Source of the DNA: a virus
IMG/VR virus record: IMGVR_UViG_3300005288_000001
Location: 62,001 to 126,000 of that record
Length of the DNA stretch: 64,000 nt
Reading direction: 5' to 3' (one strand)
Positions within the stretch are counted from its first letter, which is position 1. The number at the start of each line of letters is the position of its first letter. Below are positions 676 through 31,463 of this stretch, piece by piece. The position numbers and the translations under genes are program-made. The notes beneath the pieces were generated by a model that saw only the letters and a list, made by a program, of their open reading frames with translations, was not told the DNA's origin and did no database searches.

Positions 676-1971
676 TTATTCGTAGTCGTTCTTAACGTCT
701 TGGAAGGTGTACTTCAGATCAGCGGCCTTCGGAGCGTTTTCCTTCAGCTGTGCCTTGGTCAGATCAGTCAGGACTCGGCGGGACAGAGCATCGCATTCCC
801 ACTTGGCGTCTTCGGTTTTCATCTGAAGAGGCGGGGTCTTTTGGGTCCAGGCTGAAGCTCCGCGGATAAAGCCCACGATACCCATCTCCGAGGCAACTTT
901 GCAGAAACGAATCGCGCTGACCACGACCGAGCCGCTGTTAGGCGAATCTTGGACTGACAGACGGGCCGACATTTCGTAACGTGCACCACCGAACCCATAG
1001 GCAACAATATCAAAATTGGCGATCTTGTTATCCGACCCGACATACTGACCACCCGGTTTTTGTTGGACCGTGAGAGACGGTCCAGCGTAAAGGGTAGTGC
1101 CCGCGACGCTTTCGCCTCGGACCGTGCTTTGGCCTTTGAGAACATTTTCTTTGCTGATGTGCTTCGAGTGGAGACGTTCCTGCTTGGCCATATTCAGGAA
1201 GTCAGTATTGGCAGTACGACCGGTTCGGATATGTTCCTGACCTTGGGTCGAACCAGCGGCCATGTTCATTTGAATATGCTGGGTAACGTACAGGCCACTG
1301 TCCATCATCGCTCCTTGCAGAACTTCGGACATACGGCTGGCACCCCAACCCGAACGCATATCGGAACCGATGATTGTCAGACCCTTATCGATGAACTTCT
1401 GTTCAACTTCGCGGGCCTTCTCGATACCAATCATGGTGGGGATGCAATTCACGAAGTGGCAACCAGCGTTCAGGGCAGCTTGAACGTAGAACTCGGTAGC
1501 TTCTTCGGAACCGACTGGCAGGTAGTTGATGACGACGTCGACGCGAGCTTGCTTCAGCAGATGCGTTGCAGCTTCCAGATCGATGTGTTGCGGCAAGGTA
1601 TCCGGACGAACACGGAAAGAAACTTCACCAGGATAGTCCAGCATGTGGGGAGCCACGCCGTCAAGAACAGGGCCTGGCCATACCTTAGCACCAGGTTCGA
1701 TACAGAGTTCGTTAACGTATCCCACATGATCCATAGCACAGTTCGGAGCAGCTCGAATAGCTTCACGAAGTGGCTTGTTAATCTTGCGGGAATCAACGTC
1801 AAACCCAATCACGAACTCGATGTCGTTGACGGTGTATCCGCCGATGTCTTCATACATCAGACCGACTTTGTCTTGGGGATTTTCGATGTAGTATTGGATG
1901 CCTTCTACGAGAGACTTCGCACAGTTACCAACACCAACGATTGCTACGCGGATGCGTTCTTTATTTGACAT
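676..1971 (-). CDS. ino1: inositol-3-phosphate synthase (myo-inositol-1-phosphate synthase)
   Basis: This enzyme makes 1L-myo-inositol 1-phosphate from glucose 6-phosphate in an NAD-dependent reaction. The N-terminal Rossmann signature GVGNCAKSLVEG (about residues 13-24) is that of the bacterial/archaeal type. Further conserved stretches are GSDMRSGWGASRMSEVL, MNMAAGSTQGQEH and VQDSPNSGSVVVSAIRF. The 431-residue length is on the long side for the bacterial class but shows no break. I chose MSNKER (ATG at 1971) because AAGGA lies at the right distance; an in-frame ATG 15 bases upstream has a weaker context. The gene sits alone between two hairpins, next to the base-modification cassette. It is an unusual enzyme for a phage and may feed a sugar-like group to DNA or alter host metabolism. 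Confidence 0.93.
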   Translation of the reverse strand: MSNKERIRVAIVGVGNCAKSLVEGIQYYIENPQDKVGLMYEDIGGYTVNDIEFVIGFDVDSRKINKPLREAIRAAPNCAMDHVGYVNELCIEPGAKVWPGPVLDGVAPHMLDYPGEVSFRVRPDTLPQHIDLEAATHLLKQARVDVVINYLPVGSEEATEFYVQAALNAGCHFVNCIPTMIGIEKAREVEQKFIDKGLTIIGSDMRSGWGASRMSEVLQGAMMDSGLYVTQHIQMNMAAGSTQGQEHIRTGRTANTDFLNMAKQERLHSKHISKENVLKGQSTVRGESVAGTTLYAGPSLTVQQKPGGQYVGSDNKIANFDIVAYGFGGARYEMSARLSVQDSPNSGSVVVSAIRFCKVASEMGIVGFIRGASAWTQKTPPLQMKTEDAKWECDALSRRVLTDLTKAQLKENAPKAADLKYTFQDVKNDYE

Positions 1972-2068
1972 GATTTCCTTTTTCATATGTCAGTTGTTTC
2001 CCAGTTTTGGTGAGACTGGAGGCAGAAGTTCTTGACGGAGGGGACCGTGTAGCTGCCTTACTAACTCA

Positions 2069-2114: not shown

Positions 2115-2396
2115 TTACTTTGGTCTAGCTAACCAATCAACTAAAACAGTCAAACCACCAGGGCGCCAAGTAAGAGAAATTTCTTTGAGACCCTTCTCTA
2201 CCAGTCGGCAGGTCAGCATATAATCGAAAACGTGTTTGGCTTCGTTATATGCAGCCTCGGTGTAATATCCACTGACGTCTTCAAAACTGCCAAGCAAGAC
2301 ACCATCTCTGGTGACGTACTTGACTGTATTAGAAGAAGTCTTCGAGGCTACCGCCTTTGCCGTACTTTTCGATTTTGTCTTTGATGATCGACTCAT
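2115..2396 (-). CDS. hypothetical protein, 93 aa
   Basis: Small protein with a Lys/Ser-rich start (MSRSSKTKSKSTAKAV) followed by a compact region ending LTVLVDWLARPK. I chose the ATG at 2396 because AAGGA precedes it by five bases (GAAGGAAAATATG); an earlier in-frame start lacks such a site. It overlaps the end of the 377-residue gene upstream by 68 bases in another frame. It is the last gene of the cassette before the hairpin at 2075-2092. Function unknown. Confidence 0.6.
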   Translation of the reverse strand: MSRSSKTKSKSTAKAVASKTSSNTVKYVTRDGVLLGSFEDVSGYYTEAAYNEAKHVFDYMLTCRLVEKGLKEISLTWRPGGLTVLVDWLARPK

Positions 2397-3462
2397 ATTT
2401 TCCTTCAGGATCAAATAACCACTCCGGGTTAATCCCCAGCACTTCATACATGTTTGGCATGTCTTTGTACTGCTCATGCATATTGATTGGACTACCCGTT
2501 GCTTCGAACAATTTCATCAGGGCTTTTGACTCTCGCTTCCACTGAATAGTTGGATATATTTTATCATTGACCGTGTCCCGAAAGCCGTCGAAATTGATTT
2601 CAGGCCACTTTGCTTTGAATTCCAAGTAGCGGTTAACGGCATCGCCCGTATTCTGACCAGGATAATCTCGCCCGACGAAGAGCTTTTTACACTGACAGAG
2701 GTGGGTTTCGAGAGTGAAGTATGATAGATAATGATCGCTAATTCTATCGCGTGCCTTGGCCATGAGCTCTTTCTCCCACTTTGCAGCGCGCTCGCGGTCT
2801 TGCGGAGTTGGTTTGTGATTCGCGTAATGCTCGCCGACGGTGTACTGTTCTGCATTGTTGAGGAAGTGAAGACCGTTCCACACCGAAGTGTTGGCGGGAT
2901 CGTTGATGAACATTGTGTCGGGACGAATTGGCAGATCGCAAGTTTCCGCAAGAGCTTGGCTAAACAACCAACCAGTCATACGCCCAAACTTATGGAGCTT
3001 CTGAATCTCTTCGTTTACGTTGTGGTAAGATTGAGTTTCGGAATCGACCAAGCACGACTCAAACGCATCTTTAATTGACCCTTTACCTCTACGATCCACA
3101 AATTCCTGTAAGGATTGGACCATCTTGACGATATGTCCTTTGTTATATCGAGTGTCCGTAGCGAACTTTTGTCTGGGCATGGTTTCACGATTCCATTCAT
3201 CCAGAAGCTTGAAGTCCAGTTTGTCATAATCGGGGAAGGTTTGGTAGAAAATCCAAGCCATAGAACTCTGATACGTCATACCGAACAGGTAAGCGAACCA
3301 AAACTTCTGGTCTTCAGTCATAGGAGCGCCAGTAACACTGTGCGCTGTATCACGGTAGCCATTATTCCACAAATAATGATCAATGCCACCTCCCTTCAAC
3401 CGCCAGTCCAGCCAGCGGAAGAAGAGTTCATCACGGTTTTCGTTTAATCGCCAGTCTTTCAA
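2329..3462 (-). CDS. unidentified 377-aa protein with clamp-binding-type tail; candidate DNA base-modification enzyme
   Basis: Mostly helical-looking, rich in Trp and other aromatics, with conserved-looking blocks ELFFRWLDWRL, KFWFAYLFGMTYQSS and a Cys pair in HLCQCKKLFVGRDYPG. I cannot name the family from the sequence. It starts within the stop of the glycosyltransferase gene (ATGA overlap) and ends GGSLEDFF, the tail also found on the glycosyltransferase, the dioxygenase and DNA polymerase. The context points to a third activity in base modification. The predicted amino acid:DNA transferase (AADT/ADDT) families reported near phage TET enzymes are one candidate, based on a loose resemblance only. 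Confidence 0.75.
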   Translation of the reverse strand: MKDWRLNENRDELFFRWLDWRLKGGGIDHYLWNNGYRDTAHSVTGAPMTEDQKFWFAYLFGMTYQSSMAWIFYQTFPDYDKLDFKLLDEWNRETMPRQKFATDTRYNKGHIVKMVQSLQEFVDRRGKGSIKDAFESCLVDSETQSYHNVNEEIQKLHKFGRMTGWLFSQALAETCDLPIRPDTMFINDPANTSVWNGLHFLNNAEQYTVGEHYANHKPTPQDRERAAKWEKELMAKARDRISDHYLSYFTLETHLCQCKKLFVGRDYPGQNTGDAVNRYLEFKAKWPEINFDGFRDTVNDKIYPTIQWKRESKALMKLFEATGSPINMHEQYKDMPNMYEVLGINPEWLFDPEGKYESIIKDKIEKYGKGGSLEDFF

Positions 3463-4340
3463 AAGAAGTCCTCAAGAGTATTCGCACTGTCATCCGGTTT
3501 ATCCTGCATAAACCCAGACCAGCGGAGCTCTTTACTTAGGGGAAATTGCTTACGGAGCTCACGGATGTTTTTCAGGCGCAAGCTGTAGAAGTTCATTGAT
3601 TCGATAAAGACGGGATCTTGTTGGTAATAATCGCGAACGTAGGGCTCCTGCAAAGCTCGATAACAAGCATCCTTAGTTGCAGTTGCTCGTTCGTCGGTTC
3701 CTCGATCTCCTGAAGATTGCATACCTCCTCGGTTAGTGCCAACAGCTGTTGTGGCAACAAGCCAGTTGATAGAACCAACTCCGCCGTGGTTATGAAGAGC
3801 TCGAGCAGTTCTGATGTTATCGTCTTCATGGGACTGTTCTGTTCTAAGGGCTGACTTGTCATTGACGGCTCCCCACCAGGCGCCACCGATTTTGCGGAGC
3901 TTGAATTCAGCAAAGGGTTTCCCTTGCTTGAACATGAGATTTGGGGTGAAATCAAATCCAAAAGGCGTGGATCCAAAACATCCAAACGCGTATCCAAAAA
4001 GTCTTCCCAGAGCGACTTCATTGTCACGGCTGTCCTTATCCATAATGTCTTTGTACATCTTCACGGCAGAAATGTCATCGTCCATGAAGATAATCTTTTC
4101 CCCATCTGGGAAGTAATCGATCAGACCGTTGGTGGCGTTGTGGCCACCCTTCGGTACGATGATCATATCCAGCATAGGAACAGCTGGCAACTCAGCCTTG
4201 TATAGAGGATACTCGTCCTTCGTAACAGCCAGCACAAGCTGACGACCAAGGTCCAAGTCTGTCTGAGCGCTCAGGGTGCTGAGTGTTTTCTTCCAGATGT
4301 CTTTATGACGGCCATATGACCGTACAGCGATCTTAATCAT
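3459..4340 (-). CDS. GT-A glycosyltransferase, probable TET-associated DNA glycosyltransferase
   Basis: The 293-residue protein has the GT-A layout: an N-terminal nucleotide-binding half with KIIFMDDDIS, where D87-D89 serve as the metal-binding DxD motif, and a downstream HEDDNIR (E172-D174) like the catalytic Glu/Asp of family-2 enzymes. TET/JBP-associated glycosyltransferases transfer sugars to hydroxymethylated bases in phage DNA. Five genes separate this one from the dioxygenase in the same operon. The protein ends ANTLEDFF, a probable sliding-clamp-binding tail. The sugar donor is unknown. Confidence 0.8.
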   Translation of the reverse strand: MIKIAVRSYGRHKDIWKKTLSTLSAQTDLDLGRQLVLAVTKDEYPLYKAELPAVPMLDMIIVPKGGHNATNGLIDYFPDGEKIIFMDDDISAVKMYKDIMDKDSRDNEVALGRLFGYAFGCFGSTPFGFDFTPNLMFKQGKPFAEFKLRKIGGAWWGAVNDKSALRTEQSHEDDNIRTARALHNHGGVGSINWLVATTAVGTNRGGMQSSGDRGTDERATATKDACYRALQEPYVRDYYQQDPVFIESMNFYSLRLKNIRELRKQFPLSKELRWSGFMQDKPDDSANTLEDFF

Positions 4341-4486
4341 TCGTGGTACACCCGCATTCCGGTAGACAAGGTTTGCTCAAGAGCCATACCTTCTGTCATC
4401 TTCTTCAGTGTCTCTTTGTCCTTAGCCATCAGGGCTTCTAAATCACCATTCTTTCTGCGGACCATGAAGAATATTTTCTTAATCAT
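4337..4486 (-). CDS. hypothetical protein, 49 aa
   Basis: Short basic protein beginning MIKKIFFMVRRKNGDLEA. Both ends overlap neighbours: the ATG lies inside the end of the previous gene, and its TGA overlaps the glycosyltransferase ATG (ATGA). This chain of coupled starts is good evidence that it is translated even though it is small. Function unknown. Confidence 0.6.
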   Translation of the reverse strand: MIKKIFFMVRRKNGDLEALMAKDKETLKKMTEGMALEQTLSTGMRVYHE

Positions 4487-4688
4487 AGATTGTCCAATCT
4501 TTCACTTTTAGCTTCCTATCGCCAATCTGTTTATAGGTTCCGGCTTCGATACGATCCAGAGTTTCAACGATCTCTTTGGCCACCTTCGGGTTCCAACCAA
4601 TGCCAGGGATATGGCAGCTGCAAAAGGATCCATCGTGGCGGGGATCAAGTCTCTGGCAAATTCGGCAAGGCCCATCAAACATGCTCAT
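4479..4688 (-). CDS. small Cys-rich protein, 69 aa
   Basis: The N-terminal part carries CRIC and, 12 residues later, CSCH, a C-x2-C...C-x-C-H set that could hold a metal ion. The rest is a short helical tail (VAKEIVETLDRIEAG). GGAG lies 7 bases before the ATG at 4688. It overlaps the upstream DUF551-like gene by 14 bases. Unrecognised; part of the dioxygenase-glycosyltransferase operon. Confidence 0.65.
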   Translation of the reverse strand: MSMFDGPCRICQRLDPRHDGSFCSCHIPGIGWNPKVAKEIVETLDRIEAGTYKQIGDRKLKVKDWTIYD

Positions 4689-4884
4689 CTGGTATCTCCA
4701 TTAGTGGCATCCAATGCGTTGGATTTCGTTCAGGGTGGTCTGTGACATGGATTGTCACACCTGAAGATGTGACCCAGTTGGTGATAAAATATCCCGCCAT
4801 CCATGGACGCTTATCACCAGGCCACACCACGATACATTGTTGGCCCTGCTGTGGCTTTTCGTCCTCAAACTTGTACCACTTCAT
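4675..4884 (-). CDS. DUF551-like protein, 69 aa
   Basis: The order MKWYKFEDEKPQQGQ, then CIVVWPGDKRPW, then THWMPLMEIP matches the layout of DUF551 proteins, small phage and prophage proteins of unknown role with a terminal HWMPL motif. I chose the ATG at 4884 because it overlaps the previous stop as ATGA; an in-frame ATG at 4908 lies inside that gene. Member of the modification operon. Confidence 0.7.
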   Translation of the reverse strand: MKWYKFEDEKPQQGQQCIVVWPGDKRPWMAGYFITNWVTSSGVTIHVTDHPERNPTHWMPLMEIPDEHV

Positions 4885-5078
4885 TGCTTCGTGTAGGAAT
4901 ATGTCCAAGTTCCCATTTTTGTTTGAGGATTGAACGTTGCTCGATAGACCATCGAGATGATGGGATTACCCACAGTCATGGAGACACCTTGTGTACCACA
5001 GAATTCCTCAGTGGGTTCTGGCAAGGCGCCAACATAGTCAGGTGTAAATCCCTTTCGGGAGATTGGAGTATGTATCAA
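4881..5078 (-). CDS. hypothetical protein, 65 aa
   Basis: Small protein beginning MIHTPISRKGFTPDYVG and ending in an aromatic stretch (MGTWTYSYTKQ). Its ATG overlaps the stop of the dioxygenase gene (ATGA), and its stop overlaps the next start in the same way. No known domain. It lies directly downstream of the dioxygenase and so is probably made with it. Confidence 0.6.
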   Translation of the reverse strand: MIHTPISRKGFTPDYVGALPEPTEEFCGTQGVSMTVGNPIISMVYRATFNPQTKMGTWTYSYTKQ

Positions 5079-6409
5079 AAGAAATCCTCAAGTGATGCAC
5101 CCTTCTCGGCGTTCGGGTGGTGTTTCAGTAGTTCTTCCCGGCCCACGCGTTTCTCGCAATACTCAAACCACTCCTCCGAGTCCCACATACCTGGAGCGAT
5201 TCCGTTCCACTTGTAGCGTTGAAGCGGATGGCTAGGATCAAGGCGTCGACCCTCGACGAAATCTTCACGCGCTTTCTCATATTCGTAGCTGCCCAGCTCC
5301 AGCATGCCCTCTCGTAAGTAAACAACAAGACTTACTCTCTCGGAGTCTGGACTACCGAGAACAATTGGCGTGTTCCCATGAATAATGTCGTGGTTATTGA
5401 CGAGTAGTAGGTCCCCAGGCCGTACATTGACGGCCACTCGATACTCTGGGAATACGAGGTAGCCTCCGGTGTAATTTCCATCATTGGAGAGGACGAGGAG
5501 GTTAGACATACCTTCTGTATAATCGCCCGCGTCCCGATGGGCAGCCGTCCGAAACGTTGAGTTGACCGTAATCGTCGTGAATGGAGTACCCGGGATAACG
5601 AACGCTGGATCAATACTATCGGAAGCAGCTTTTTGGTTTGCGTATCGAGCCGGTAGCAAATCTCGGAACCCTTCGGCGAGACGCTGTAGAAATGGATATG
5701 CTTTGATGAAGTCTTCATAATGATCTCGTGTGTATCCAGTTGCACGGCCGAACGGGATGCGGGGATAGCGATCAAACCATCCAGCGATACCCGAACGAAC
5801 CTTGTTGCCATAGGTCGAAGTGGAGATGTAACCTGCTACTTCCTGAACTTTCTTATGGCGCTCAGGCTTCGCAAGAGGAATAAGGGAATCAACCCAACGC
5901 TCAAAATCGAAAGAAGGATCAAAACGAGCATAAACCCAAACAGTGTGCTTACCATTCCCGGTGACGACTTCTCGGCTTTCTTTCGTTGGGTAGCGCGCGC
6001 GAATTTTGTCAATTATTTCTTCCTCGACCAAAGCGGACGTAACCGAGTCTTCATCAATGGCTTCCAACATATCGTGTTGGTAATTTGTGACAAAGGCCCG
6101 AGCAACACGACCTTCTTCTGTTGTATGGCCTTCAAGGATCCCAGATGCCAGACCGCGATTTTCTGTTTCACGCGCCGCAGCACGTAAGCCTTCATATGCG
6201 GCTTGTTGGTCTTCCGTACGGAAATAATTTTTACGAAACTTGAACGCAATGCGTTTTTCGTCAAGGGGCGAACCCCCGACCGATTGGTCCGGTATGTAAC
6301 AGTCAGTGTCTTCATTGACTAGAATGTCGTAATGTGAATCGTCGATGAATCGGCCGATGGTGTTTTCGGCTTCTTCGTATCGTTGGGGAGCTACTAGAAT
6401 TTTTGTCAT
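5075..6409 (-). CDS. TET/JBP-family 2-oxoglutarate/Fe(II) dioxygenase
   Basis: The C-terminal half contains the double-stranded beta-helix signature of TET/JBP nucleic-acid oxygenases: HRD (H291, D293) in TAAHRDAGDY, distal H344 in DIIHGNTPI, and R358 in ERVSLVVYLR for 2-oxoglutarate. GGYLVFPEY and RPGDLLLVNNHD are typical of the family. Such enzymes hydroxylate the methyl group of 5-methylcytosine or thymine in DNA. The first 200 residues are charged and not recognised. The protein is 444 residues and ends GASLEDFF, the tail shared with DNA polymerase. No clear ribosome site precedes the ATG. It heads an operon that includes a glycosyltransferase, which would cap the hydroxyl group. Confidence 0.88.
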   Translation of the reverse strand: MTKILVAPQRYEEAENTIGRFIDDSHYDILVNEDTDCYIPDQSVGGSPLDEKRIAFKFRKNYFRTEDQQAAYEGLRAAARETENRGLASGILEGHTTEEGRVARAFVTNYQHDMLEAIDEDSVTSALVEEEIIDKIRARYPTKESREVVTGNGKHTVWVYARFDPSFDFERWVDSLIPLAKPERHKKVQEVAGYISTSTYGNKVRSGIAGWFDRYPRIPFGRATGYTRDHYEDFIKAYPFLQRLAEGFRDLLPARYANQKAASDSIDPAFVIPGTPFTTITVNSTFRTAAHRDAGDYTEGMSNLLVLSNDGNYTGGYLVFPEYRVAVNVRPGDLLLVNNHDIIHGNTPIVLGSPDSERVSLVVYLREGMLELGSYEYEKAREDFVEGRRLDPSHPLQRYKWNGIAPGMWDSEEWFEYCEKRVGREELLKHHPNAEKGASLEDFF

Positions 6410-6427
6410 CAGTTATATAGATTGCTT

Positions 6428-7834
6428 TTAAAAGTTGAAGTCAAAGCCACCGCGCTTCTCAGCCGACTGTCCCTTTCCGAAACTAGTCTTATCAAAGGCT
6501 GGACCGGTGTCCTTGCCGCCAGAGTCAGCCAAGTCATCTTGGGCATCGTCTTCGACATTATACAACTTCATTCGAGCTTTGTCAACACCAACAACGAATC
6601 GCTTATAATAGCTTGGATCGCCATATCGATTCTTCAATTGCTTAATCATTAGCTGGTTCAACTCATCTAGCTCTTCAGTACGTATTATAGCTAGATAAAG
6701 ATCAAGCGCGTGGACGAGGCCCATAGACTCCGACGTATCGGTCATGGAAATATCCGACGAACCAATACCACCACGATTAACCTGGGTCGCCGTCAGGATA
6801 GGAACATTGTATTCCACAGCCAGACCACGGACTTCTTCGGCAATCGCCTTAACCGTCGTGTAGCTATTCGCGTTGGCGTTCGCACGGATACGCTGCGAGG
6901 CACAGATGTTCAGGTAATCGATAACGATCAAGTCTGGAACGAAACCACGCTTCTGCTTCAGATCCTCGATAAGAGCACGGAAGTGTCCAGCATGAGCACC
7001 GGAGGTTGGATACTCCTTGACGATTAGCTTACCAGTCGTACGGGAGGTAATCTTTCCCATACGCGAGTTGAACGTTCCCTGATCGATGTTTCTAAGTTGC
7101 TTGATCGGAGTATTGAACAGGTTCGCATCAATACGTTCCGCATAGCTGAACTCGGACATTTCCATCGAGATGATCAGGACGTTCTTACCCTGCATCAAAG
7201 TCGCTGCGGCGATGTGAGACATAACCAAAGACTTACCACCACCGGTTTCGGCGGCCAAACAGGTCAGGGTCTTGTTTCGTAAGCCGATACCATCCGTGAT
7301 CTTGTTGAGCAGATCAATGTCGAACTTGATACCAGTTTCTTGGGAGTGATAGTGTGCAAAACGATCGTCTGCATTCTCGAAGTAATCGTGACCAATGTTC
7401 GTGTCAAACGAAACGGCCAGGGCTTCTTGAAGCAGGGTTGGAATAGATTCTTGGGTACGCTTCTTGTCAACACCTTCCACAATCGCAATGGAATTGTAGA
7501 TAGCATTGTATACCGCCTTGGCCTTACAGAACTTCTCAGTTTCGTCTAGGAGCCATTGCTCGTTAACAGTTTCTGCCGCGAGCCCGTCAATAATTTCCGT
7601 CGTTGTTTTAATGTCCGCTTCCGTCAAATCCTTACGATTTGCAATAGCGATATTCAGCACCTCATGTGTACATGCCTTGGAGTACTTCTCAAAGAACTCC
7701 ACTGCGGATTCAATAAGCACTCGCTCATGACGATTCTCAAAGTATTCTGGCTTTAAGAAAGGTACAACCTTTCGGGTGTACTTTTCGTCATAGAGCAAGT
7801 GGGAAAGGATAGACTGCTCAATGCGTGCTGTCAA
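6428..7834 (-). CDS. 41: replicative DNA helicase, T4 gp41-like
   Basis: DnaB-type helicase that unwinds DNA 5'-3' ahead of the leading-strand polymerase. The Walker A motif is ETGGGKS, and nearby blocks (NVLIISMEMSE, KRGFVPDLIVIDYLNIC, NSYTTVKAIAEEVRGLAVE) closely match T4 gp41. At 468 residues it is close to the T4 length. The start appears to be TTG at 7834, since the first usable ATG is far inside the domain and the N-terminus IEQSILSHLLYDE aligns with T4. It follows the upstream gene by two bases. The C-terminus is GGFDFNF. Confidence 0.95.
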   Translation of the reverse strand: MTARIEQSILSHLLYDEKYTRKVVPFLKPEYFENRHERVLIESAVEFFEKYSKACTHEVLNIAIANRKDLTEADIKTTTEIIDGLAAETVNEQWLLDETEKFCKAKAVYNAIYNSIAIVEGVDKKRTQESIPTLLQEALAVSFDTNIGHDYFENADDRFAHYHSQETGIKFDIDLLNKITDGIGLRNKTLTCLAAETGGGKSLVMSHIAAATLMQGKNVLIISMEMSEFSYAERIDANLFNTPIKQLRNIDQGTFNSRMGKITSRTTGKLIVKEYPTSGAHAGHFRALIEDLKQKRGFVPDLIVIDYLNICASQRIRANANANSYTTVKAIAEEVRGLAVEYNVPILTATQVNRGGIGSSDISMTDTSESMGLVHALDLYLAIIRTEELDELNQLMIKQLKNRYGDPSYYKRFVVGVDKARMKLYNVEDDAQDDLADSGGKDTGPAFDKTSFGKGQSAEKRGGFDFNF

Positions 7835-7836
7835 GA

Positions 7837-8112
7837 TTAGGTTCCACCTGTGTAAATAATAGAGTTTTTCTGCACTCCTTCTCGAAGCAGGTCCGTCAGG
7901 TGATCACCTAATTCCTGCTCAAAGGCTTCAACATCGAATTCCTCGAGGGGATTTTCGATGATATCATAATCAAATTTAAGTGCCAGCTGATCGTTCTTTT
8001 TGTCTTCAAGCAGCTGAACCTTGGAGTAACTAAAAATTATACCCGCAAACGGTCCCTCTGTAAAGGCCAAGGCCTCGATTGGTCCGTTGATGTGGCTCTC
8101 AGTGTTTCTCAT
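7837..8112 (-). CDS. conserved hypothetical protein, 91 aa
   Basis: Acidic small protein (MRNTESHINGPIEALAFTEG at the start, IENPLEEFDVEAFEQELGDH in the middle). It sits between uvsX and helicase 41, a position where T4-like phages of marine hosts often carry small conserved genes. It overlaps the next upstream gene by 14 bases. No function can be assigned. Confidence 0.65.
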   Translation of the reverse strand: MRNTESHINGPIEALAFTEGPFAGIIFSYSKVQLLEDKKNDQLALKFDYDIIENPLEEFDVEAFEQELGDHLTDLLREGVQKNSIIYTGGT

Positions 8113-8320
8113 TTACACCCTTCGTAATGTAGTCGGCTGGATAATGTGCTCCGTTAGGGAGTCGAATGTAGAACTTGTCCCATGGAACAGTCATGTAATA
8201 GGTCGTCAGGATAACATCGAATGGACCGGTGATAACATCGATCCATCGCTCACCCTGGAAACCCACCAAGACACATCCCTTCTTGTACTCGAAAAGCTGC
8301 TCGATGATTTCCTTCTTCAT
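8099..8320 (-). CDS. hypothetical protein, 73 aa
   Basis: Small protein beginning MKKEIIEQLFEYKKGCVLVG and containing PWDKFYIRLPNGAHYPADY. It starts immediately after the uvsX stop codon and overlaps the next gene, so it is part of the uvsX-41 operon. Not recognised. Confidence 0.65.
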   Translation of the reverse strand: MKKEIIEQLFEYKKGCVLVGFQGERWIDVITGPFDVILTTYYMTVPWDKFYIRLPNGAHYPADYITKGVNEKH

Positions 8321-9439
8321 TTATTCCACCTTTAGGTTAATTCCAATTGGTTCGTCTAGGTCGGAGTAGTCGTCATCCAGAAGTGAATCTGCAATGTCGT
8401 CATCCATATCGCTAGACATGATGTTACCGTTCGCTACTTGGTACTTCTGACGAATCCATTCCTTGAACGTTTCATCTGCCAGAATCTGATTCCAGAACAC
8501 CGAGTGATTCGTCTGCGCTTCACGCCAGTTCTTTTCCTCGATCTCACCAGTACCAGTGTTCACACGAGCGTACCAGCCGTTCTTTGGCTTGATAACGTGG
8601 CCGGATTCAAGTGCCATATCCAACAGACCGGACCACTTGTTAATCCCCTTCTCGTACATAACGTTGATAATGATCTTCGACTTTTCGCGAACGTAACGTG
8701 ACTTCTCAACATTAATCACGAAGTTCCAACCAACGATCTCAGTACCGTCCTTCTCTTGCTGACGACCGATAATGTAGATGTTATCTGCCGAGTAGTAAAT
8801 ACCCGTACCACCAGAAACGACTGCCTTCGAGTACATTTCCTGGGTTTGGTATGTATGGTTAACAACGTCCATCTTGATGTCCTTCAACTTCAAGTGAGGA
8901 GTGACCATACGGAAGACCGACTTCAGCTGTTTAGCACGAGTCATGTCGCCAACCGACTTACTATCAAGAGCGTCGTCAACTTCCTTCTTGGATGCCAGGT
9001 TACCAATCGAGTCAACAGCGATGAATACCTTATCACCACGTTCGATACCGTCCAGCTGGTTCATGACGTCAAATTTGAATTCTTCGATGTTGGTAATCGG
9101 AACGTGTAGCACACGAGACATGTCGATGTTGTATGCCTGGAAGTATGCTTGGGGAGTACCAAACTCACTATCATAGAAGATACAGATTGAGTCCTTATAC
9201 TTGTCCAGATACGACTTGATCATCAGGAGAAGATAGGAGGTCTTGAAGTGCTTGGAAGGACCGGCCCAGATGGTCAGGCCAGGTTCAAATCCACCATCAA
9301 GGTCACCCGAAAGGGCAACGTTAATTGCGGGGACTTGGGTTGTGATCATGTCCTTCTTATGGAAGAACTTAGAAACAGCTAGAACAGCCGTATCCTTGAT
9401 CGTTGAGTTTTTCTGTAGTTTATCGAGTAGTTTGGACAT
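8321..9439 (-). CDS. uvsX: RecA-like recombinase UvsX
   Basis: Strand-exchange protein that pairs single-stranded DNA with a homologous duplex, driving recombination-dependent replication. Walker A is GPSKHFKTS, the T4 UvsX form, with the core CIFYDSEFGTPQAYFQAY and FIAVDSIGNLASKKEVDDA. The 372-residue length fits. The acidic C-terminus (MDDDIADSLLDDDYSDLDEP) is typical of UvsX/RecA. UvsY, UvsW, gp46 and gp47 are elsewhere in the window. No obvious ribosome site precedes the ATG. Confidence 0.97.
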   Translation of the reverse strand: MSKLLDKLQKNSTIKDTAVLAVSKFFHKKDMITTQVPAINVALSGDLDGGFEPGLTIWAGPSKHFKTSYLLLMIKSYLDKYKDSICIFYDSEFGTPQAYFQAYNIDMSRVLHVPITNIEEFKFDVMNQLDGIERGDKVFIAVDSIGNLASKKEVDDALDSKSVGDMTRAKQLKSVFRMVTPHLKLKDIKMDVVNHTYQTQEMYSKAVVSGGTGIYYSADNIYIIGRQQEKDGTEIVGWNFVINVEKSRYVREKSKIIINVMYEKGINKWSGLLDMALESGHVIKPKNGWYARVNTGTGEIEEKNWREAQTNHSVFWNQILADETFKEWIRQKYQVANGNIMSSDMDDDIADSLLDDDYSDLDEPIGINLKVE

Positions 9440-9462
9440 ATGTGTTAGAAGTATAGTAAAAT

Positions 9463-9478
9463 AGTAAGAAGCCTTACT
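9463..9478 (-). other. small hairpin after gene 43
   Basis: AGTAAG-GCTT-CTTACT (leftward) forms a 6-bp stem right after the polymerase stop, followed by ATTTTAC. It may be a weak terminator or an RNA-end protector between gene 43 and uvsX. The stem is AT-rich, so the support is modest. Confidence 0.35.
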
Positions 9479-12018
9479 TAGCCGAAGAAATCTTCAAGCG
9501 ATGCAGTCTCCTCAGCCGCCCACCCAAGAGGACCAATAACGGCGTTCAACGGTGCCAGGAAGGCTTTATCAAACATCGTGTCGTAGTCAATGTGCTGGTC
9601 AATCTTGAACTCTGCAGGGATCTTACTGATGTACGAAATAACGTTTTCGTGAAACGCGTTGGGCATACGGAGGTACGTATATTTGACCTTGTCTCCTTCC
9701 TGGATCATCGGATATTTGGTGTCGATCTTAAGTCGCTTCGCATGATGGTTGAAGAGCAGGGCGCCACGAACTTGGATAGGTGTGCCGGAACGATAGACCG
9801 GACTACCGGACCACTTGGCCAATCCATTACAACCACGAGGGAATGCAATCTCATTCACGTCCAACTTCATAAATTCCTGACGCGTATTCGCCACCAGCTT
9901 CTGTACGGACTTTTCGTCACCATACAGAACTGTCTCAACGGCGGAACGCAACTGTGTACGAACCACTGCTGGAGTAGACGACTTAACCAGGGCCAGACCA
10001 CGCACCTTCAACTTCGGCTTCTCATAACGAACACCTTCAGAGTCCCACACGCTGAGCGCGTAGTTCTTCTTGGCAACGAAGACCGAAACGTCAGCAAGAA
10101 CTTCTCGCTTCATGGACATCGCTTGTTTATACGAGTTCATGTATTTCGCCAGGTCTTCATACGATTGCTTAATCAGCGGCTGGATGACCTGCTCACAGAC
10201 CTTATCCATGAAGTCAATCTGGGACTTCACATCCTTGCCCGGCATCGTCTTATCTACAAGAGCCTCAAGAGTCAGGTAGAACGCGTCCGTGTCAATCGTG
10301 ATAACGTAATCCTTATCCTTCGTACCAAGAATCTTGTTCATCTTCTCGTTCATACGGTTAGCCATCCAGCGAATTGCCAGCTGACCAGATAGGGTAATGC
10401 CTTCGGCGATACGGAGATCGTAATAGCGGAAGTAGTTGGAACCGATCGCACCATAAGCCGAGTTCAGCTGAATCTTACGAGCCAGCTGCAGATTGTTCAG
10501 GCGAGCAATTTCATTGAGCAGGCTTGAGTCCTTCGTCTTCTCATACTTATCCTCAAGCGCAAGCATTTCCTTCTTAAACTTCTTACGTTCAGCATACATC
10601 TTCTCCATCAGGAACGGCAAGAAGCCTTGCTTAGACCTGGTATAGCAGACGCCGTTGGCCGTCATCGTCGCGTTGTTATCGTAGAGCCATTGAAGGTCCG
10701 TATCCTGTTCCAGGAGCCCATCCACTGTCACGTTGAAACGCTTATCCTGGATCATTGTCTCAGGACTGATGTTTGCCCACATCATAATGTGTGGATACAG
10801 ACTGTCCAAGTCGAACGAGGCGACGTTACGGTGCTTACCGACAATCGGAGGCTTAACGTAAGCTCCTTCGAACTGGCCACCCTTGCTGGTATGGGTCTTG
10901 TTCGGGATAACGATCTTCAGGTCACGGAAGTGATTGTAAATCAGGACGTCCCAGACTCGAATCTGACCAGACACGTCTTCATAGTTAACCTTCGCGTCAT
11001 AGGCCACCGTCAGCGTCAGGTCTAGCAGCTTATGCTTCGCGTCAATACCACGGACAATTTCATTGTCGATAATATTGTATGCTACGAACTTGTCCCAGTT
11101 CCCTTCATAGAATGCTCGGAAGGTATCGAACTCATCGTGGTTCAGTTTCTTTCGCTTCAGTTCTACGTCACCGATGTGGTCCAGACGATAGTTCTCTTGC
11201 TTCGGAATCGATGTCGACTTCTTATAGATTTCGATGTAATCGATGGCAGAAATACCGGCGATGAAGTAATAGATGGTCGTGTCTTCCTCAACGACTACTC
11301 GCTTCTCACGGATGACACCCCATGGCGAAATTTGCTTTGCGAAGTCTTCTCCCATCACCTTAATCATCCGACGAATCATGTAGGGGACGTCGAAGGTATC
11401 GATGTTCCAACCAGTGATAACGTCTGGATAATTATTGGCCCAGAACTTCATGAACTCTTTGAAGAGCGAAATCTCATCGGCACAGATCGTCTTCTCAATG
11501 ACAGGAATATTCTCCGGGTCATGCTCAAAGTATTCCTTCTTGATGGTAAAGTCTTTGGCCGAGAAGACATGATAGCGTTTGTGGAGGCTATCATAGAAGG
11601 AGATAAGCAGCACTTCCTGGTCGGTGGTTTCCATGTTCGGGAAGCCGTTTTCAGCACGGGTCTCGATGTCCAGGAAGTAGGTCCGAATCATATTCATATC
11701 CGGAGAACGAATGCCAGGATATGTGTCGGCGATGTACTGATACTCATAGCTGGTCATTCCATAGACGTTGAATCCATGGACATCCTTGTACTGCTCAATG
11801 AAGTTTCTACAGTCTTTGATGCTACCAGGCTTTACTGGATAGACTGGTTTACCCTCAAGAGTCGTCCACTCTGAGGTCACGCCTGTTTTCTTGGCGTCCG
11901 TGAAAAGCGTTGGTTCGAACTTGACCTTGCGCATGAATCTTTCGCCATTCCGAAAGTATCCACGTTCTAAAATCTGATTCCCGTATTGGAAAACGTTAAG
12001 GTAATTGTCTTGGCTCAT
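9478..12018 (-). CDS. 43: family B DNA polymerase, T4 gp43-like
   Basis: Replicative polymerase with 3'-5' exonuclease. Exonuclease motif I is FLDIET (D117, E119). The polymerase motifs are FDLDSLYPHI (A), RKIQLNSAYGAIGSNYF (B) and ITIDTDAFYL (C). Motif C keeps the two aspartates but has Ala and Thr-Ile where T4 has Ser and Tyr-Gly. At 846 residues it is a little shorter than T4 gp43 (about 900). The C-terminus SLEDFFG corresponds to the T4 gp43 tail that binds the gp45 clamp. GGAG precedes the ATG, and a large hairpin lies just upstream. Confidence 0.97.
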   Translation of the reverse strand: MSQDNYLNVFQYGNQILERGYFRNGERFMRKVKFEPTLFTDAKKTGVTSEWTTLEGKPVYPVKPGSIKDCRNFIEQYKDVHGFNVYGMTSYEYQYIADTYPGIRSPDMNMIRTYFLDIETRAENGFPNMETTDQEVLLISFYDSLHKRYHVFSAKDFTIKKEYFEHDPENIPVIEKTICADEISLFKEFMKFWANNYPDVITGWNIDTFDVPYMIRRMIKVMGEDFAKQISPWGVIREKRVVVEEDTTIYYFIAGISAIDYIEIYKKSTSIPKQENYRLDHIGDVELKRKKLNHDEFDTFRAFYEGNWDKFVAYNIIDNEIVRGIDAKHKLLDLTLTVAYDAKVNYEDVSGQIRVWDVLIYNHFRDLKIVIPNKTHTSKGGQFEGAYVKPPIVGKHRNVASFDLDSLYPHIMMWANISPETMIQDKRFNVTVDGLLEQDTDLQWLYDNNATMTANGVCYTRSKQGFLPFLMEKMYAERKKFKKEMLALEDKYEKTKDSSLLNEIARLNNLQLARKIQLNSAYGAIGSNYFRYYDLRIAEGITLSGQLAIRWMANRMNEKMNKILGTKDKDYVITIDTDAFYLTLEALVDKTMPGKDVKSQIDFMDKVCEQVIQPLIKQSYEDLAKYMNSYKQAMSMKREVLADVSVFVAKKNYALSVWDSEGVRYEKPKLKVRGLALVKSSTPAVVRTQLRSAVETVLYGDEKSVQKLVANTRQEFMKLDVNEIAFPRGCNGLAKWSGSPVYRSGTPIQVRGALLFNHHAKRLKIDTKYPMIQEGDKVKYTYLRMPNAFHENVISYISKIPAEFKIDQHIDYDTMFDKAFLAPLNAVIGPLGWAAEETASLEDFFG

Positions 12019-19863: not shown

Positions 19864-20161
19864 CAAACCCCACTTTCTGCATTTCCGACAGCGAGGCATA
19901 GATATTCTTGCCAGGAAGGTTCAGCTTCACATGGGCAACCAATTCTTCCTTGGTCTTACCCTGACCCGCAAACTTTCCGTTCTGATCGTACGCATAGACA
20001 ATCCCGTTCTCTTCACGAGTCAGGGTGAGATGCGCCGTGTGGTACACCATTGACTCGAGAATCTCGTCCAGTTCTTCCTTTTGGGCAAGCCGAAACGATT
20101 TGTACGAATGGTATCCCCAAACAATTAGTCCGAAGCCGACGATGCAATAGAAGGTATTCAC
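19853..20161 (-). CDS. membrane-anchored small protein between genes 44 and 62
   Basis: The first 20 residues (MNTFYCIVGFGLIVWGYHSY) could span a membrane, followed by a charged soluble domain with VYAYDQNGKFAGQGKTKEELVAH, which looks like a small alpha-beta fold. Its ATG overlaps the gene 44 stop and its end overlaps gene 62. T4 has no gene here. Function unknown. Confidence 0.65.
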   Translation of the reverse strand: MNTFYCIVGFGLIVWGYHSYKSFRLAQKEELDEILESMVYHTAHLTLTREENGIVYAYDQNGKFAGQGKTKEELVAHVKLNLPGKNIYASLSEMQKVGFDVK

Positions 20162-21105
20162 TTGAACTCCACAGATGACATAATCTCAGTCATAGCTGCC
20201 ATGACATTGATTTCGGGGTCGGCCACGAACGCAGCCTTGTACTGGTAATCGGCAAGGATCAGGATCAGTTGAGGGATAGATGCCGGTACAAGAAGATCAA
20301 CAGACTTGTCGTAGAACATACGAAATAGAGCAGAAGTGTCCACATCGCTGTTCTTACCCACCCATTGTCGGACTTTGTTAAAAGCCTTCGCTCGAACGTT
20401 ATCAACCAGTTCTTTATACGATTCATCGCCAAGGTTCACCAGAATGCCAGCATCAATCTTTCCTGATACGGCATAGCTTTGCAGTTCGTTGAGGGTGCGA
20501 CGGAAGTCCGGAAAGTACTTCGTCACCAGTTCCGCCACTACTTTGGCGTCAAACTCAACACCCTCGGCCTTCAGAATTTCAGTGACGCGCTTGTGGAATT
20601 GCATTGCAATCTTGGGCTTGTCAGCGGCCGCAACCTTGAACGAAATAGTTGTGCAACGGCTGTGGATCGGTTCAATGATCTTTGCCTTTTGGTTACACGT
20701 CAGAATGAACGAGCAGTTGGAGCTAACCGCTTCCATCACCGCTCGGAGCGCTGGTTGGAACGAGTTCGGGTTAAGGCCGTCAGCCTCGTCAATAATAATG
20801 ACCTTCTTTGCATCAGTCAGGGAGACGGTCGTTGCGAAGCCCATGAGTTTCGTGCGAAGCGTATCAATGCCAGACTCTTCCGAGCCATTAATAAGCATGT
20901 AGTCTGCACCGAGTTCGTTACATAAGGCCAATGCAATTGTGGTCTTACCAACTCCCGCAGTTCCGGGTAGAAGGAGGGACGGGATGTTTCCTTTTGCTGC
21001 ATATTCCTTGAAGATGTTCTTGATGTTGGCGGGGAGAATGCAATCGTCAATTTTGCTGGGACGGTACTTTTGATACCAGACGAATTCTTTAGCGTTGTGA
21101 TCCAT
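20158..21105 (-). CDS. 44: clamp loader ATPase subunit, gp44-like
   Basis: AAA+ ATPase that opens and loads the sliding clamp. Walker A is GTAGVGKTT, Walker B is VIIIDEADG, sensor 1 is FILTCN and the SRC motif HSRCTTISF follows. The 315-residue length agrees with T4 gp44 (319). It starts after the clamp gene region with a TATAAT box upstream, and it overlaps the next gene by four bases. Confidence 0.97.
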   Translation of the reverse strand: MDHNAKEFVWYQKYRPSKIDDCILPANIKNIFKEYAAKGNIPSLLLPGTAGVGKTTIALALCNELGADYMLINGSEESGIDTLRTKLMGFATTVSLTDAKKVIIIDEADGLNPNSFQPALRAVMEAVSSNCSFILTCNQKAKIIEPIHSRCTTISFKVAAADKPKIAMQFHKRVTEILKAEGVEFDAKVVAELVTKYFPDFRRTLNELQSYAVSGKIDAGILVNLGDESYKELVDNVRAKAFNKVRQWVGKNSDVDTSALFRMFYDKSVDLLVPASIPQLILILADYQYKAAFVADPEINVMAAMTEIMSSVEFK

Positions 21106-21532: not shown

Positions 21533-22192
21533 TTACTCGAAAGTCGAGTCAGCTTCAATCGCGATGAAGTATTCCAGTTCGCCGTTGACAGCCTTGAAAC
21601 GGCTAATCTTCTTCGAGCTAATGGAAACGTCATACGAGCCAGCGACCAGCTTCAGGTTTTCCACCTTCAGGTTTACGCGGAACGTTCCGGTAGCAGCGCC
21701 AATCTCGATGACCGACTGGTTCGAGGTTGCGTTCTTCTTATCGGATACGACCACCGACAGCTTCGAGCCGTCACCGACAATAGCCAAGTCACCACCACGG
21801 AGAACCGCACTGGTACGTTGAATCATGGCCAGGTCTTCTTGCGAGAGCGTGAAGTTGACTTCTGCCGTCGGGAAGGTAATCTTCTTGGTTGGAGTAACCA
21901 GAACCGAGCTATCGGCAGCGAAGTACTTGATCGAGTTCGAGCCTTCTTGGATCAGAACAAACTTCTCGGTGAAGGACAGTTCCGGTTCGTTGAAGAGGCT
22001 CAGGGCGCCCAGGAATTCGCTCAGGTCATAGATACCGAACTCAGCGTCGAAGGTCTCGGTCACGACTGCGGAAGCCATGATGTTCTTCTGTGCGCTGATA
22101 GTTGCGATTTCGTTACCCGGCTTCAGCAAGAGATTGCTGTTGATGCTAGCGAAGTTCTTGAAGCGGGCGAGGGTGTCTTTGGATAGTTTCAT
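21533..22192 (-). CDS. 45: sliding clamp, gp45-like
   Basis: Ring-shaped processivity factor for the polymerase and, in T4, the mobile enhancer of late transcription with gp55 and gp33. The N-terminus MKLSKDTLARFKNFASINS and the end IAIEADSTFE match T4 gp45 (MKLSKDT..., ALEADSTHDF). The 219-residue length is close to T4 (228). It is the presumed docking site for the (S/T)LEDFF tails noted elsewhere in the window. Confidence 0.95.
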   Translation of the reverse strand: MKLSKDTLARFKNFASINSNLLLKPGNEIATISAQKNIMASAVVTETFDAEFGIYDLSEFLGALSLFNEPELSFTEKFVLIQEGSNSIKYFAADSSVLVTPTKKITFPTAEVNFTLSQEDLAMIQRTSAVLRGGDLAIVGDGSKLSVVVSDKKNATSNQSVIEIGAATGTFRVNLKVENLKLVAGSYDVSISSKKISRFKAVNGELEYFIAIEADSTFE

Positions 22193-30270: not shown

Positions 30271-30677
30271 GGATTAGCTGACGGTTTTAGAATGTCCTCA
30301 ACCAGTTTCACAGGGAGAACAAACATATGGCCCATTATCATTTCGGAGTCTTTTTCGGGCATATCAGTTTTCGTGAATGTGATATCGTCTATGAGCATTT
30401 GAGCCAGAGCCAGAGCCATTTGGCGCTTGACCGAGATCTTCCATTCTTGCTCAGAATTGTACAATTCACGATTACCACTGGCAACCTCCATACGAACTTC
30501 GTACAGATGCTTGTCCATCTTAACAGCCAAGAGACCCATCTTAGTCCATTTGGCGTAAGGAGTTCCTTCTGGCTCCTTCACGACCGCAACTACTCGATGT
30601 TGCTGGCTAAGAGTTCCACCAAGTTTGGGATCGTAAGCGTCAGGAAGGGGAAGCAAGGTTTTAGGAGTCGTCATCAT
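30267..30677 (-). CDS. conserved hypothetical protein, 136 aa
   Basis: MMTTPKTLLPLPDAYDPKLGG... with a beta-rich middle (HLYEVRMEVASGN) and a helix-rich end. It overlaps the gene 55 stop by 17 bases and the gene 47 start by four. The start could be either of two adjacent ATGs. Small genes sit here in several T4-like phages; function unknown. Confidence 0.6.
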   Translation of the reverse strand: MMTTPKTLLPLPDAYDPKLGGTLSQQHRVVAVVKEPEGTPYAKWTKMGLLAVKMDKHLYEVRMEVASGNRELYNSEQEWKISVKRQMALALAQMLIDDITFTKTDMPEKDSEMIMGHMFVLPVKLVEDILKPSANP

Positions 30678-31320
30678 TAAGTAAGTCTTCAGGAATTGGA
30701 AGACCCTCAAAGTCTGGGTCAGCCAACTCTTCTATCACAGGGTCCTCGACAAATTCGGCGAGGGACGGTTCGCTACTCTTCTTGGATTTCTTAGGCTTCT
30801 TTTTATCGAATACCGAAGTATCTACGTCGGAATGTTGTTGCATGAATTCAACCATAGAATTCGTGAACAAGCCGTCTTCATCATGCACTTGGAGGTCAAA
30901 CTGATTCTCCCATAGCATGCTGGTAACCATCTTTCCCTTAATCGCAGCTTGCTTCTTTTCGCGCGTAATGCGGCGAACGAAAGCATAGTAATTGATCTGG
31001 GTAAAATAGGCAAACGGCTTTGCGTAGTTGTAGGGATCGTAATTATCCAAATATCGAAGACAGTTTTCGATCCCGTCACTAATCATTTCGTCGCGGTATG
31101 AGTAACCTATAAAGTTTGACTTATAAGCTAGATGGCGCGCTATCTGGTAGATGCATGTTCCAATATACTCGGAAACTTGTGGCTTTTCTAAGCCTGCTTC
31201 TTTGGCAGCGTCGACTGCGGCACGGCGTTCCAGCATCGCAGCTTGGAACATCTCGTTATCCACGTAGTGGTGGGCGGTCGATTCAGGGGGATTTTCGGGG
31301 GTCAGTTCTGGCTCACTCAT
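30661..31320 (-). CDS. 55: late-transcription sigma factor gp55
   Basis: Directs host RNA polymerase to T4-type late promoters (TATAAATA). The core FIGYSYRDEMISDGIENCLRY and KPFAYFTQINYYAFVRRIT is very close to T4 gp55. SLAEFVED near residue 190 may play the part of the T4 clamp-binding tail (SLDFLYE), although here it is internal. I chose MSEPELTPEN at 31320; the longer frame upstream is non-homologous. No ribosome site precedes the ATG, and a TATAAT box lies six bases upstream, so the message may lack a leader. Confidence 0.93.
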   Translation of the reverse strand: MSEPELTPENPPESTAHHYVDNEMFQAAMLERRAAVDAAKEAGLEKPQVSEYIGTCIYQIARHLAYKSNFIGYSYRDEMISDGIENCLRYLDNYDPYNYAKPFAYFTQINYYAFVRRITREKKQAAIKGKMVTSMLWENQFDLQVHDEDGLFTNSMVEFMQQHSDVDTSVFDKKKPKKSKKSSEPSLAEFVEDPVIEELADPDFEGLPIPEDLLNDDDS

Positions 31321-31326
31321 AGATAA

Positions 31327-31332
31327 ATTATA
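31327..31332 (-). promoter_or_regulatory. TATAAT box directly upstream of gene 55
   Basis: GGGTATAATTTATCT precedes the gene 55 ATG. A start seven bases downstream would coincide with the ATG itself, giving a leaderless message. No good -35 is seen. The remaining gap (31333-31463) holds a small hairpin (CCAACT/AGTTGG, 31364-31382) and an inverted repeat (CACCGC/GCGGTG), with no gene. Confidence 0.4.
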
Positions 31333-31463
31333 CCCTAAGATGGACAGAATGGCTAGTTTCACTCCAACTGGGTAATAGTTGGTAAAATAGTGGAACACCG
31401 CTTTACTTCTACTTTACAGGGTGTCATAATAGCGGTGTGGTGTCTGAAGTATGCCGTTGAAGT

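Follow-up and report, generated by a model that had tools for sequence, protein, structure and literature searches.

IMG/VR virus record IMGVR_UViG_3300005288_000001 totals 172.5 kb and comes from a T4-like phage, and here we describe a C-terminal peptide shared by its DNA polymerase and three putative DNA-modification enzymes, all encoded on the minus strand within positions 62001-126000 of the record, a stretch of 64,000 nucleotides that we refer to as the window. The polymerase, of family B and gp43 type (9478-12018, 846 aa; phrog_262, E=6e-303), ends in ETASLEDFFG, with the tail SLEDFFG encoded at 9481-9501. A TET/JBP dioxygenase (5075-6409, 444 aa; PF12851, E=1.1e-23) ends in KGASLEDFF (tail SLEDFF, 5078-5095), a glycosyltransferase of the TET-associated glycosyltransferase (TAGT) type (3459-4340, 293 aa; PF20691, E=0.002) ends in SANTLEDFF (tail TLEDFF, 3462-3479), and a 377-aa protein of the amino acid:DNA transferase (ADDT) family (2329-3462; PF18724, E=1.6e-22), with relatives in loci L020 and L022 and in phage Cr30, ends in GGSLEDFF (tail SLEDFF, 2332-2349). 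A preliminary description of the window had reported near-identical ends on these proteins, and we recovered all four open reading frames (ORFs), each with its tail, where it had placed them. Using a degenerate DNA pattern to look for LEDFF in the rest of the genome, as that description had proposed, we found LEDFF-coding DNA at only four sites in the 172.5-kb record, each of which is a protein end; the opposite strand of the record held none, and a reversed control pattern gave 0 matches. No internal LEDFF occurs in the 270 ORFs resembling coding sequences (54,694 residues), and shuffling the last 40 residues of these ORFs gave an expectation of about 0.0005 LEDFF tails per genome versus the 4 observed. 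The LEDFF codons of the four tails are CTC GAA GAC TTC TTC, CTT GAG GAC TTC TTT, CTT GAG GAT TTC TTT and CTT GAA GAT TTC TTC, and because these synonymous codons differ, the tails are not a recent DNA copy. Gene copying was rejected as their source on the grounds that both codons and protein families differ, in agreement with the earlier view that the three accessory proteins are unrelated and their tail unlikely to be inherited.

We also examined the identity of the modification enzymes. The 377-aa protein had been described as an unknown, a label that no longer fits: its match to PF18724 scores 80.8 bits, above the curated cut-off of 26.2, and we conclude from this profile match that it belongs to the ADDT family, with a predicted transferase activity. 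For the glycosyltransferase, the PF20691 match of 18.5 bits lies below the 27.5-bit curated cut-off and is weak alone; the protein clusters by BLAST with its counterpart in locus L103, which is a clear TAGT (5.4e-11, 43.3 bits), and its Cr30 homologue is 31% identical. An AlphaFold model of the glycosyltransferase built from four sequences had a mean predicted local distance difference test score of 45 and was not used, and single-protein viral scans with the window glycosyltransferase and ADDT yielded one close relative only. The window TET matches the PF12851 profile and has the TET/JBP fold in its AlphaFold model, to which the nearest structures are CcTet, NgTET1 and human TET2. Like known phage cytosine hypermodification modules, this phage combines a TET/JBP dioxygenase with a probable TET-associated glycosyltransferase, but it differs from them in carrying an ADDT and clamp-type tails and in showing no PF00145 match for a C5-cytosine methyltransferase in the 172.5 kb of a record that may be incomplete. 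Neither a thymidylate synthase/hydroxymethylase nor a 5-hydroxymethyldeoxyuridine (5-hmdU) kinase was found in the 172.5-kb record; as a control, the 5-hmdU kinase profile found its target in 12/12 other phages. The TET homologues of phage entries KU682439.2, KF301602.1 and MG450654.1 bear the GenBank label 'SNF2 DNA repair protein', which is likely a misannotation.

To survey which protein families carry the tail, we collected TET relatives from viral contigs and named phages, which gave 91 loci including the window and 1437 proteins. Using a fixed C-terminal motif, the tail was present on every polymerase (36/36), TAGT (6/6) and D12 adenine methyltransferase (2/2), on 80 of 91 TETs, and on 16 of 19 members of a GT-B glycosyltransferase family, the other three of which end in TLDAMFG; this GT-B family had 0 matches in the phages collection. 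Looser patterns were seen for two GNAT acetyltransferase families (7/15 and 7/25) and for ADDT (6/41), many other members of which end in the related GLENF or GLEALW. The remaining proteins carried the motif at the shuffled background rate (8/1202), and none of the 72 other families in these loci bore it in a majority of members. It was absent from the helicase gp41, UvsX, gp44, gp45, the inositol-1-phosphate-synthase-like (MIPS) protein of the window and an adjacent glutamine-amidotransferase family (47 members). Because the motif had been written after the window tails were seen, we added a motif-free test, in which the proteins on the polymerase strand were compared with the polymerase's own tail; the closest match was TET in 33/36 loci and a modification enzyme in 35/36. 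The tail is kept among relatives that are about 55% identical. Within the TET relatives, the LxxFF core is conserved and follows a linker of variable length and sequence, and in the window TET model confidence falls below 50 across the last three residues.

We next consider phages in which the polymerase tail itself has changed. Ackermannviridae contain 5-hmdU-based hypermodified DNA, and 5-(2-aminoethoxy)methyldeoxyuridine (5-NeOmdU) has been reported for ViI (PMC6449724). In most Ackermannviridae examined, the 5-hmdU kinases HMUDK and HMUD2 and the ADDT bear the altered tail type of their polymerase (VNLLSMM, SVMDFF or KLW). The polymerase of Kuttervirus PST-D24 ends in VNLLSMMGKKG and its HMUDK, ADDT and HMUD2 in VNLLDRLKKPE, VNLMTLLKR and VSLLGLLSKG, respectively, and the polymerase and HMUDK of Vi01 have the same ending type. 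Phage phiMAM1 pairs a polymerase ending in VNLLSMMGKR with enzymes ending in VNLLSMLGGKK, SNLLAMLLRNKK and ANLLNMMRK; Cygsa01 pairs SVMDFFS with SVLDLF, NVFDLF and DLMGFFQ; and Vibrio phage 1.244 (L110) pairs KARKLW with KTRKLW, KTKRLW and VTKRLW. None of these phages has the tail on its pyridoxal-phosphate enzyme, its nucleotidase, its thymidylate synthase, its clamp or its loader. The T4-like phage Cr30 likewise has a polymerase ending in DLSSLFD and a TAGT ending in DLSKLF. Permuting the polymerase tails within lineages gave p=0.0003 for 17 phages, which were hand-picked and are phylogenetically non-independent, such that shared ancestry partly remains in this value. The sequences compared thus indicate that enzyme tails covary with the tail of their own polymerase in most phages, with three loci that break the rule. 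The Ackermannviridae pathway resembles the window in that its DNA-level enzymes (HMUDK/HMUD2 and ADDT) bear the polymerase's tail type, and differs in its motifs (VNLLSMM, SVMDFF, KLW) and in its 5-hmdU kinases, which were not found in our record. Locus L110 also contains, at 6587-7126, a 179-aa ORF of unassigned function that ends in KTATRRLF and resembles the KLW tails that the polymerase and modification enzymes have in Vibrio phage 1.244.

Tail presence was further compared with the replication genes of each phage. A second TET set, gathered around phages HTVC112P and P12024L, contains many locus fragments and many near-copies, and we therefore state its result at the level of loci: among TETs with a complete C-terminus, the tail was found in 0/78 with no T4-type replication genes in the locus and in 3/3 with such genes, where the TETs end in NLESFFG. 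The three tailed loci hold gp46 together with gp45/gp44 or UvsW genes. No gp45 match was found in the whole records of HTVC112P, P12024L, ctUhy936 and Ab18, and their TET, TAGT or kinase-like proteins lack the tail. The whole record of S-CBWM1 also gave no gp45 match and its TET is tail-less, yet its TAGT ends in ELEDLLP. These comparisons link the tail to possession of a gp45-type phage clamp or replisome.

The presumed docking partner in the window is a gp45 sliding clamp (21533-22192, minus strand; PF09116, phrog_223; PDB 1czd, 6drt and 1b77/1b8h, E about 1e-26). The preliminary description had placed the clamp at this position, and the product is indeed a homologue of T4/RB69 gp45 along its whole length (E=1e-26). 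In T4, the tails of gp43, gp55 and gp33 bind gp45 and are interchangeable (PMC2988020; PMC7892883). T4 gp43 ends in SLDFLFG and T4 gp55 in SLDFLYEAND; the T4 proteins used as positive controls for tails were negative save these two. The sliding clamp-binding motif (SCBM) of T4, which is joined to its proteins by a linker, is similarly a short hydrophobic-acidic C-terminal peptide on unrelated proteins, whereas here the motif is of LEDFF type and is borne by DNA-modification enzymes. The T4 clamp also accepts a motif of DNA ligase. We propose that the shared tails are gp45 clamp-binding motifs and that the post-replicative modification enzymes are gp45 clients, to which we assign a probability of roughly 0.8. 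The polymerase tail would dock on the phage gp45 ring, and TET, the TAGT-type glycosyltransferase and ADDT, which carry the same motif at their extreme end (behind a short variable linker in TET), would most likely be brought by gp45 to freshly synthesized DNA. There, TET would oxidize a base methyl group and the glycosyltransferase and ADDT would decorate the product. In this scheme we infer physical gp45 binding with its stoichiometry, timing and coupling at the fork, the reaction order and which base is modified; DNA would be modified as it is made. The clamp tether raised in the preliminary description gains good comparative support, at the level of sequence, from family specificity, from absence of the tail in loci without T4-type replication genes and from covariation with the polymerase tail. 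More broadly, clamp-encoding phages of at least two lineages probably have many post-replicative hypermodification enzymes that separately gained their own polymerase's version of the tail and co-evolve with it, which would amount to a replisome-borne assembly line comprising TET, two glycosyltransferase folds, an amino-acid transferase, two 5-hmdU kinases, acetyltransferases and an adenine methyltransferase. The TET tree needs four tail changes, and its very long branches (Melnitz, S-CBWM1) keep us from claiming a number of gains; the L216 and L217 TETs belong to the tailed clade and do not count as an independent gain.

Several observations weigh against a clamp tether. The tail of TET is lost or degraded in some clamp-bearing phages (L056/L060, L058 and Cr30), and the TETs at L056 3240-4544 and L060 5761-7065 end in NRLVES. 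A tail-less enzyme homologue beside a polymerase that keeps its tail, which the preliminary description had named as telling against tethering, occurred only sporadically, as in L060, where the polymerase ends in NLEEFFG; the TAGT adjoining the tail-less TET of L056 ends in STLEEFF. The shared ancestry left in the permutation test counts on the same side. In phiA8-29 (L135), L133 and L134, a K(T/S)(K/R)(K/R)LW end is common to HMUDK, HMUD2 and ADDT but absent from their polymerase, whereas in Vibrio phage 1.244 the three enzymes have this end and the polymerase has KLW too; the KLW end in phiA8-29 and L133/L134 is possibly a second clamp-binding form or serves another partner. Finally, the T-even enzymes alpha-glucosyltransferase (alpha-GT), beta-GT, Dam (T4) and TAGT (T2) have no tail despite the presence of gp45 in T4 and T2. 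An interaction of T4 alpha-GT with gp45 was reportedly described by Sommer in 2004. In line with the contact mentioned in the preliminary description, pull-downs confirm that T4 alpha-GT binds gp45, but it ends in EQFDIITK without such a tail, and the T4 sugar-linkage ratio is set by expression with the gp45 contact minor rather than the main determinant (PMC13216743). T4 alpha-GT is a DNA-modifying glycosyltransferase that touches gp45, as the window enzyme would, and is unlike it in being tail-less.

The most serious alternative within a gp45-tether frame is a general tool-belt role, in which the tails bind gp45 on idle clamps that trail the fork or are distant from it. Such binding would raise the local concentration of the enzymes on phage DNA with no coupling to synthesis. 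This possibility, which we hold tentatively, agrees with all of the sequence evidence, and it fits both the service of DNA-tracking gp45 in T4 late transcription (PMC2988020) and the small effect of the alpha-GT-gp45 contact on linkage ratio (PMC13216743). It is unlikely that the tails bind a different hub common to the polymerase and the modification enzymes, such as another replisome protein: the shared KLW end in phiA8-29 and L133/L134, being unlike the polymerase tail, points to a possible second partner in some phages, but tail presence tracks gp45-bearing records, and the partner of the polymerase tail in T4/RB69 is gp45 (PMC2988020). Hydrophobic-acidic pentapeptides such as that in TLEDLF look similar to motifs for the host beta clamp. 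The consensus for that clamp is QLxLF. However, TETs in phages without gp45 are tail-less, the tails change with that of the phage polymerase from one lineage to another, and the phage encodes its own clamp and loader, and we consider host-clamp binding very improbable. Chance, common descent of one gene end and recent copying of DNA, for which the closeness of three of the genes could be cited, can be dismissed almost entirely, as they are contradicted by the 0.0005 tails expected versus 4, the differing codons, the non-homologous families, conservation across relatives about 55% identical, the 0/78 versus 3/3 split and the motif-free polymerase-tail match.

A clamp tail common to hypermodification enzymes was not reported in the open-access full text that we searched, subscription papers being outside the scope of that search. 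Clamp clients are already known, and hypermodification enzymes would be a new client class, present in two lineages. A eukaryotic parallel is DNMT1, which is bound to PCNA via a PCNA-interacting peptide (PIP) box: base modification is clamp-recruited after replication, as proposed for the phage, but DNMT1 uses a PIP box, performs maintenance methylation and has no homology to the phage enzymes. Our results suggest that in many phages the base-modifying enzymes travel with the replisome, which is significant because hypermodified phages must modify their DNA ahead of restriction enzymes or the packaging motor. A polymerase-matched clamp tail is a directly testable mechanism by which phages that modify after synthesis could achieve this, and it would extend the clamp tool-belt to bacteriophage DNA modification, with a testable prediction for ViI-type phages, whose modified base is described. 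It also suggests how new DNA-modifying enzymes could be recognized from phage sequence, namely as proteins that end like the polymerase.

Other genes of the phage adjoin or relate to this system. The tail-less MIPS enzyme (676-1986, minus strand; PF01658, 4e-9) adjoins ADDT, ends in FQDVKNDYE and may supply a modification precursor. In Cr30 (L017 20001-26474), TET, ADDT and TAGT are grouped with an inositol-1-phosphate-synthase-like gene as in the window. The gp44 clamp-loader ATPase (20158-21105, minus strand; PF21328, phrog_168) ends in SSVEFK and has no tail. A gp55-type late sigma factor at 30661-31398 has the C-terminus IPEDLLNDDDS, which lacks the T4-type clamp motif. Elsewhere in the same genome, outside the window, a 71-aa ORF (G000:C1:43071-43286) with 0 PHROG matches lies beside a phrog_107 exonuclease and ends in GDLEDFM, and it may encode a gp33 late-transcription coactivator that bears a clamp motif.

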